In this document: piece by piece, positions 4,979-29,854 of the stretch
Numbering within the stretch: the first letter of the stretch is position 1
How the letters are laid out: each line of letters starts with the position of its first letter
Assembly: GCA_030425705.1 (NCBI GenBank)
Contig: JAUHZU010000007.1
Coordinates: 62,001 to 126,000, forward strand
Origin: Phycisphaerae bacterium
Lineage (GTDB): Bacteria; Planctomycetota; Phycisphaerae; Phycisphaerales; Phycisphaeraceae
Reading direction: 5' to 3'
DNA length: 64,000 nucleotides
The notes under the pieces: generated by a model
The model's database searches: none
Seen by the model: only the letters and a program-made list of their open reading frames with translations
Told to the model about the DNA's origin: nothing
Position numbers and translations under genes: made by a program

Positions 4979-6172
4979 CTACTGCTGGAGGTACAGCCAG
5001 ACGAAGCCGGTGCTCTCTTCGAGGATGAACTCGGAGCGGCTCTGGTAGTGGGCCTGGTAGCGCTGCATGATCTCCTGGTAGGCCTCGCTCTGCGGGTCTT
5101 CCTGGGCCGCCTGGAGTTCGGCGATGATGGTCTGGGTGGTCTTGTCCCACTCGGCCTGGAGCGTTTGCGATTGCTCGCGGGTCATGCCTTCGGGGTAGGT
5201 GACGATGCGGGCCGTATCGCCGACGAGCAGGTCGAGCTTGCCGTCGCCGTTGATGTCGTCCACCCAGATGCGTGTCGATCCCGCCGGGGCGTTGGGGGTA
5301 TCCGCGCCGCCGGCCTGGGGGTAGCCGTTGGGCTCGATCAGGGTTTCAAAGGCCGCATAGACCGGGGCGCTTTTGGTGTCGGCCGTGTTTTCCGCCAGGT
5401 ACACGCCGCCCTGCGACGACCCGCTGAGCAGGTCCAGGTCGCCGTCGCCGTCCCAGTCCACGAGGAACGGGTCGCTGTGAGCGCCGGGGATACGCAGGGG
5501 CGCGTCATTGGCAAGGATCGGCTCGGGCTCGGGGGCGAACCCGCCGTTGCTTTCACCCTTGAACAGGTAGAACGTGCCGGAGAAGTTGCCGACCACCAGG
5601 TCCAGGTCGCCGTCGCCGTCCCAATCGACCGCGGTCGGTCGGGTGCAGATCTTCTCGGTGATGTTGTCGTCACCGGCGGGGATGATGAGGACGTCGTCGT
5701 CGGTCCCGGTCAGATCGACCGGTTTCTTGAACCCGTCGTCGCCGCCGTAGAGCACCTGGAAGGTGCCGGCCATGCCGCGCTCACGGTTGTTCCAGGAGTA
5801 GGAGCCGGAGAGGATGTCGTTGAAGCCGTCGTTGTTCAGGTCCACCAACTGTGGAGTGGAGCTGGTGCATCACCAGACGCCCGGGACGATCGCGGTCTCG
5901 CCCTCGGCCTGGAGGAACTCGCCGGCCGCAAGTGTGCCGTCGCCCTGGTTGCGGAAGACGTGGATCTTCCCGTCACGGAACTGCCCGACGAGCAGGTCCT
6001 TGTCGCCATCGCCGTCGATATCGTCCCAGCAGGGCGCGGCGTAGCCGGGGGCCTCCACCTTGATCGGTTCGCCGCCGGCCTCCATGCGGACCGGGTCGGC
6101 AAAGTCGGCGGCGCAGGCACCGCCCGCAACGCTCATACATGCAACCATCAATAACCGTCGTGTCGTCATCAT
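4979..6172 (-). pseudogene. secreted FG-GAP/VCBS-repeat protein with one in-frame TGA
   Basis: A single reading frame of 397 codons runs from ATG 6172 to the stop at 4979, apart from one TGA at 5872-5870 (codon 101). The start follows AGGGG with seven bases of spacing and encodes a signal peptide (MMTTRRLLMVACMSVAGGA). At least five FG-GAP calcium-loop repeats are visible, on both sides of the TGA: DIDGDGDKDLL before it, then DLNNDGFNDIL, DWDGDGDLDLV, DWDGDGDLDLL and DINGDGKLDLL. The protein would be exported and fold as a beta-propeller, with an acidic C-terminal helical tail. The TGA reads Trp-stop-Cys. It may be a recent nonsense mutation, a sequence error, or selenocysteine. Re-initiation at TTG 5848 would give only the downstream 289 residues without a signal peptide. 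Confidence 0.7.
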
Positions 6173-28924: not shown

Positions 28925-29854
28925 GTGAAAGAGTTTGACTTGATTCAGTCAATCCTGGCGTGCAACGATCAACTGCCGCCGAACGTCCTGGTCCCGCCCG
29001 GGGACGACATGGCGGTCCTGCGCGTCGGCGGAGCGGACCTGCTTTTCGCGGCGGACCAAGTGATCGACGGCGTGCACATCGACCTGCGGACCACGCCGAT
29101 CGAGAAAGCTGGGCGGAAGGCGGTCTGCCGCAACCTGTCGGACGTCGCGGCGATGGCGGCAGCGCCCGTGGGGATGGTGTGCTGTGTCGCGCTGCCCAGA
29201 GGGATGGCTGGAGCGAAGGCAGAGCGCTTGCTTGAAGCAGTACGCTCGACCGGCGAGCGGTATGGCTGTCCGCTGGTCGGCGGCGACACCGGGATGCACG
29301 ACGGCCCATTGACACTGAGCGTGACCGTCCTCGCCGAGCCCGCGGGCATCGCGCCTGTGACGCGTGCCGGCGCGCGGCCGGGCCATGCGCTGTACGTCAC
29401 CGGCCCGCTTGGGGGGACGCAGATCGAGCACAACGGGACGACCCGACACCTCGACTTTGAACCACGCATCGAACTCGCGCGAGCACTCGCCGGGAGCGAC
29501 ACCACCCGCCCCTGTGCCATGATCGACCTGTCCGATGGGCTGGCCCGCGACCTGCGGCACCTGACGCCGCATGCACGCCTCCGAACCGAAGACCTGCCGA
29601 TCGCCGACGCCGCGGTCGCCGCGGCCGGGCTTTCGGGGTGGCCCGCCTACCGCCACGCGCTGGGCGACGGCGAGGACCACGAATTGCTCTTTGCGATCCC
29701 TGCGGACCGTGAGCCACACCTGGAAGCACTGGCCCCGCACTACCCGGGGCTGACGCGCATCGGCGAGGTGACCGAGGCCGGCGGGCTGGACATCACCCAC
29801 GCCGGACAACGCATCGACCTCGCCGGTCTGGGCTGGGAGCACGGCGATGGCTGA
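28925..29854 (+). CDS. thiL: thiamine-monophosphate kinase
   Basis: ThiL phosphorylates thiamine monophosphate to thiamine diphosphate, the cofactor that transketolase needs. The 309-residue protein has the PurM-like signatures: VPPGDDMAVLRV near the N-terminus, LSDVAAMAA, LVGGDTGMHDGPLTLSVTVL and MIDLSDGLARDLRHL, followed by DGEDHELLFAI. The start is the GTG at 28925 (read as MKEFDLIQ); the 27 upstream codons from 28844 do not resemble the family, and a -10 box intervenes. The gene overlaps tsaE by eight bases. Confidence 0.93.
   Translation: MKEFDLIQSILACNDQLPPNVLVPPGDDMAVLRVGGADLLFAADQVIDGVHIDLRTTPIEKAGRKAVCRNLSDVAAMAAAPVGMVCCVALPRGMAGAKAERLLEAVRSTGERYGCPLVGGDTGMHDGPLTLSVTVLAEPAGIAPVTRAGARPGHALYVTGPLGGTQIEHNGTTRHLDFEPRIELARALAGSDTTRPCAMIDLSDGLARDLRHLTPHARLRTEDLPIADAAVAAAGLSGWPAYRHALGDGEDHELLFAIPADREPHLEALAPHYPGLTRIGEVTEAGGLDITHAGQRIDLAGLGWEHGDG

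Follow-up and report, generated by a model that had tools for sequence, protein, structure and literature searches.

The TGA-containing gene and its product

In the window (the whole 64,000-nt stretch analysed), a minus-strand frame running from 6172 to 4979 consists of 100 codons, a TGA at 5872–5870, 296 further codons and a TAG (Table 1), with the local reading Val-Trp-TGA-Cys-Thr. The preliminary description had noted a single in-frame TGA with intact flanks in a Trp-TGA-Cys setting; the former was confirmed by read-through translation and the latter in the sequence. Within the window's first 18 kb, five of 12 genes terminate in TGA, which is therefore still a stop codon in this organism. 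Neighbouring genes (dnaX, ybaB and glycosyltransferase genes) give no functional clue. An overlapping plus-strand ORF (5048–6154) was considered and rejected as lacking support.

Table 1 Features of the interrupted FG-GAP gene, in window coordinates.
Feature	Position	Strand	Basis
Predicted selenoprotein gene, 397 residues, Sec at 101, stop TAG	4979..6172	-	Read-through translation; family alignment; FG-GAP_3 E=4.7e-25
Predicted export signal peptide, ~residues 1-22: Arg-Arg, hydrophobic core, probable site ACA/ADF	6107..6172	-	Sequence reading; cleavage predicted
Propeller blade 1, residues 46-73	5954..6037	-	AlphaFold2 model
UGA codon predicted to be read as selenocysteine, residue 101	5870..5872	-	Family alignment; 93 distinct TGA contexts
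Cys102, vicinal partner of Sec101	5867..5869	-	Conserved in 75/76 members
Putative SECIS core hairpin, stem UCCAC/GUGGA (5855-5851 with 5845-5841), loop AGUUG (5850-5846)	5841..5855	-	Conserved pairing, compensatory changes
Propeller blade 2, residues 108-141, directly after Sec-Cys pair	5750..5851	-	AlphaFold2 model
Propeller blade 3, residues 176-204, begins at Cys176	5561..5647	-	AlphaFold2 model
His232, blade 4 equivalent of Cys176	5477..5479	-	34/35 GVW-UC type members
Propeller blade 4, residues 234-279	5336..5473	-	AlphaFold2 model
Propeller blade 5, residues 298-325; Arg301 invariant in GVW-UC subfamily	5198..5281	-	AlphaFold2 model; subfamily alignment
Helical hairpin inserted in blade 5, residues 332-381	5030..5179	-	AlphaFold2 model
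Last strand, residues 384-394, likely closes blade 5	4991..5023	-	AlphaFold2 model; closure suggested by strand order

The read-through product contains five DxDGDG-type repeats and scores above the gathering thresholds of Pfam FG-GAP_3 (88.4 bits; threshold 26.9) and FG-GAP (54.9 bits; threshold 22.1). An AlphaFold2 model built with 42 family members (mean pLDDT 91.6, pTM 0.89; low confidence for residues 1–20) has five blades, as read from the strand list, plus a helical hairpin and, at the end, a strand likely to close blade 5. The best solved-structure matches in Foldseek are propellers (TM about 0.3–0.4), so that model and matches both give the beta-propeller fold characteristic of FG-GAP repeat proteins; the search for solved relatives returned generic FG-GAP proteins only. 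With a signal peptide read from the sequence and a fold taken from a confident model, the product is very probably an exported propeller.

Two subfamilies were distinguished around the TGA. Sec101, Cys102, Cys176 and Arg301 are invariant in the GVW-UC subfamily (35/35) and His232 has a single exception, while the SG/TG-UC subfamily keeps Sec-Cys together with His44, mostly Ala176, Arg299 and mostly Lys301. Cys176 (blade 3), His232 (blade 4) and residue 44 (blade 1) each lie three residues before the proline of their repeat, and W392 in the last strand is invariant in A1.

Conservation of the TGA codon and the selenocysteine machinery

Matches were found in 32/397 genomes of the same class, each close match holding exactly one TGA, and a scan of genome contigs added members from Verrucomicrobiota, Lentisphaerota and other Planctomycetota. 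In a sample of the phylum the family occurs in 99/392 genomes and, among the matches listed, all but eight carry exactly one TGA; one of these eight lacks coverage of the site and two, unread, come from the same genus as inspected Cys forms. The TGA occupies the same codon in a 77% identical gene of a congener and in 93 distinct contexts from Planctomycetota, Verrucomicrobiota and Lentisphaerota, closed single-contig chromosomes included. Third codon positions are the most variable both upstream and downstream of the TGA, indicating that the downstream part is translated. Had an ordinary FG-GAP gene recently acquired a nonsense mutation, or had its sequence been misread or misassembled, just such a single in-frame TGA would be expected, but its sharing with the congener and across three phyla, closed chromosomes among them, and the coding-like evolution of the codons behind it reduce the probability of such an event to practically nil. 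The nonsense mutation entertained in the preliminary description is thereby ruled out, the TGA being conserved in many independent genomes.

In the aligned column TGA is present in 67/76 family members and is otherwise replaced by Cys (L042, L050, L106, L108, L166 and L168–L171) or, in one small clade, by Gly. Comparison of homologues at this codon had been proposed as a check; most TGA-less relatives have Cys here and none has Trp, giving the pattern by which bacterial selenoproteins are recognised, a UGA that homologues share or, as a rule, replace by Cys. Sec is the common state on the tree, where Cys occurs at four separate points and Gly at a single one; 5 changes suffice to account for the Sec/Cys/Gly labels. 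The Gly clade (L047, L055, L056 and L057) retains Cys102 and has extra nearby cysteines (CFPR); three of its four genomes are without selA. Four other members (L040, L043, L051 and L052) have an additional Cys two residues before Sec (VPCG-U-C), creating a Cys-Gly-Sec-Cys motif.

Targeted searches of the source genome (4.1 Mb, 98.7% complete) located selD, selB, selA and tRNA-Sec in one cluster on contig 14. Scores were 520 bits for selA, 345 bits in all for selB and 362 bits for selD, and the tRNA-Sec match (64.9 bits) was found independently by ARAGORN, with anticodon tca (UCA). All four genes that the preliminary description had listed for checking (selA, selB, selC and selD), the set expected in the genome of a bacterium encoding selenoproteins, are thus present and clustered. 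The selD gene (L026; G000:C14:658047-658976) has one in-frame TGA of its own and so is probably also a selenoprotein gene. Between selD and selB on contig 14 (L184:3589-7275), translations suggest genes for an ABC ATPase, two permeases and a binding protein of the PhnD type; this set, lying inside the sel cluster, is a candidate transporter for selenium uptake. Within the window itself, a 357-residue frame shows a weak SelD-like match at 28991-29422 (+) (48 bits, below cut-off), probably reflecting another enzyme of the same superfamily.

Presence of the TGA form follows that of selA, which was detected in 62/66 genomes with the TGA form versus 1/9 with other forms, against a class background of 147/397 genomes. 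A second, partly overlapping genome set gave 42/44 TGA genomes versus 1/7 others; it includes six near-complete genomes of one genus with the TGA-less form (four forms read, all Cys-Cys) and only sub-threshold selA matches. Over both sets selA was not found in six TGA genomes (G345, G360, those of L077 and L092, G639 and G745), which are mostly fragmented drafts, G345 being a single contig of 87% completeness.

When the source genome and one congener (G000 and G395) were compared with 13 other genomes of the sampled family, selA and the FG-GAP Sec gene were found only in the window's genus. The window protein is sister to a Lentisphaerota sequence (support 100/99). Horizontal transfer with joint gain of selA and the FG-GAP Sec gene by this genus is possible, as is retention.

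A conserved hairpin downstream of the UGA

With the T of TGA as position 0, the hairpin comprises pairs 17-31, 18-30, 19-29, 20-28 and 21-27 around a loop at 22–26. The stem, the loop and the G within its first two positions had been proposed from the window sequence and are borne out, with the loop starting 19 nt after the TGA and the G at position 2. Published bSECIS limits (loop 3–9 nt, stem 4–16 bp, spacing 16–37 nt, G in the first two loop positions) accommodate the window copy (loop 5, stem 5, spacing 19, G position 2), and the G rule holds in 66/68 family contexts, seven of these with a 3-nt loop. The energy of the enforced hairpin is at or below the bSECIS limit of -7.5 kcal/mol in 62/68 family contexts and is -6.4 kcal/mol in the window copy. 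Rfam gave no match for the SECIS of the FG-GAP family.

All 93 distinct contexts form the inner four pairs and 88 form the complete set of five, although several of the paired bases are also constrained by the protein sequence. Pair 20-28 is A-U in 78 contexts, G-C in 12 and G-U in three; the G-C form couples a Pro CCG codon with a Val-to-Ala change (CCA..GTG to CCG..GCG). One further context (L173) exchanges C-G for U-A at pair 21-27, with Val to Met. Register-shifted versions of the hairpin pair at 23–51%, compared with 98.8% for the true position. Under synonymous recoding with each gene's own codon usage, 1.5 +/- 1.2 of 68 family contexts would be expected to carry the 5-pair stem, whereas 64 do; for the window gene alone, recoded in the same way, the stem appears in 0.15% of draws, so that its hairpin is more than a chance product. 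Codon choice deviates accordingly at the paired positions: A as third base of Pro/Ser was observed 60 times versus 5.2 expected, G as third base of Val 61 versus 20.5 and T at position 17 64 versus 6.8. The stem is absent from all checked Cys and Gly forms with an aligned Cys102.

A stronger competing stem had been described, and this stands for the window copy as naked RNA (-11.1 vs -6.4 kcal/mol) but not across the family, where the rival fold is unconserved. In 65/68 distinct family contexts, congener included, the conserved hairpin differs from the best fold by no more than 1.5 kcal/mol, and the RNA of the congener folds into it. A ribosome with UGA in its A site would cover roughly the first dozen downstream bases, which would disfavour the rival fold.

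A frame open beyond the TGA would also be seen if UGA were decoded in some other way, whether by general reassignment of the codon to Trp or Gly, by a suppressor tRNA or by selenium-independent programmed read-through. Such decoding is very improbable given that TGA terminates nearby genes, that most TGA-less relatives have Cys at the aligned position and never Trp, and that presence of the TGA tracks both selA and the hairpin. Selenocysteine, the other option in the preliminary description, draws support from the Sec machinery, the conserved SECIS with compensatory changes and the Cys of TGA-less relatives, and the sequence comparisons make its insertion at 5872–5870 almost certain. Overall, an exported five-bladed FG-GAP selenoprotein with a Sec101-Cys102 pair is by far the best explanation of the locus.

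Predicted decoding, active centre and relation to known selenoproteins

Taking the conserved parts together with the established bacterial pathway, SelB carrying Sec-tRNA(UCA) would bind the hairpin at positions 17–31 (first UGA base as 0), Sec would be inserted at residue 101 and translation would run on to the TAG at 4981–4979. Decoding of Sec-UGA and termination compete in general (PMC4513850), and a selenoprotein that doubles as a selenium switch, yielding a secreted 100-residue fragment or lower expression when selenium is low, can be envisaged. The upstream 100 residues show no sign of an independent domain, with one blade only in the model, and a switch of this kind appears improbable.

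The Sec101-Cys102 pair is predicted to sit just before blade 2, where in the window subfamily it would be joined by the conserved aromatic residue 44, Cys176, His232 and Arg301 from other blades. The shared register of residue 44, Cys176 and His232 in the blade repeat suggests that the pair and its subfamily-specific neighbours ring one mouth of the propeller channel, at one face, as an active site. There the pair might cycle between two states, oxidised as a vicinal selenosulfide and reduced as selenol/thiol. Given the residue register, the export signal and general Sec chemistry, we infer an extracytoplasmic selenosulfide redox centre, probably engaged in the redox chemistry of thiols or peroxides; conservation and the model together moderately favour such a redox active site. 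Binding of a metal or ligand by the pair, or a structural role, without redox catalysis would suit its accompaniment by Cys176 and His232 in the GVW-UC subfamily and the fact that binding proteins (e.g. integrins, lectins) make up most of the FG-GAP propellers with solved structures. The SG/TG-UC subfamily replaces Cys176 and His232 yet keeps Sec-Cys, placing those ligands outside the common core, and Sec is rarely retained purely for structure, so that we regard this alternative as rather unlikely.

Like other bSECIS selenoproteins, the window protein combines an in-frame UGA, a downstream hairpin within the published limits, selA/B/C/D and Cys homologues (PMC13188914). Most characterised selenoproteins are thioredoxin-like (PMC13188914), whereas this is a propeller with an adjacent Sec-Cys, and neither Pfam, the model nor Foldseek indicated a thioredoxin fold with UxxC or CxxU. 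It shares its repeats, Pfam families and fold, and profile matches, with FG-GAP/VCBS propellers (PF13517, PF01839; e.g. the integrin alpha head and Psathyrella velutina lectin), but differs in having five blades plus a helical hairpin, in reaching TM-scores of only about 0.3–0.4 against solved structures and in the Sec-Cys pair. An adjacent Cys-Cys vicinal disulfide in a propeller enzyme is known from PQQ-dependent methanol dehydrogenase, which has eight blades and PQQ; this serves as a lead only, and neither NCBIfam nor Pfam gave a match of the window protein to that family. SELENBP1 (selenium-binding protein 1, or methanethiol oxidase) is to our knowledge not Sec-encoded, and no sequence match to it was found. 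As a propeller also linked to selenium and thiols (PMC10362175), it provides a loose analogy.

A May 2026 review (PMC13188914) inventories prokaryotic selenoproteins in 119 families or subfamilies, among which there is no FG-GAP or VCBS repeat family. Nine members run against NCBIfam release 20 gave weak matches only, with no model reaching its cut-off. Nothing relevant was found in the literature on FG-GAP, VCBS or beta-propeller selenoproteins; a mention by Haft and colleagues or in the groundwater deep-Sep study is possible, although the 2026 review, which cites both, lists no FG-GAP family. The recoding is thus standard, while the protein family and fold are new to selenoproteins as far as the literature found shows. 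It is quite likely that these exported FG-GAP propellers, with five blades and an active centre of Sec and Cys, constitute an unrecorded but common family, present in a quarter of the sampled Planctomycetota genomes and in Verrucomicrobiota/Lentisphaerota, with a fold new among listed selenoprotein families.

This is a large family rather than a single odd gene, which is beyond the reach of single-sequence reading, and from its occurrence in the phylum sample it may be one of the more frequent selenoproteins in Planctomycetota. With it the selenoproteome gains a propeller fold and a centre in which Sec and Cys are adjacent. The family also represents a reason to retain the Sec machinery; standard gene callers will split its genes at the UGA. 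The four Cys lineages allow a natural comparison of Sec and Cys forms, through which to ask why an extracytoplasmic protein retains selenium. Among 105 ORFs around 28 homologues no shared partner was identified, and the gene neighbourhood therefore supplies no operon clue. DUF1573 proteins, which belong to another listed selenoprotein family, occur twice among these ORFs, possibly by chance.
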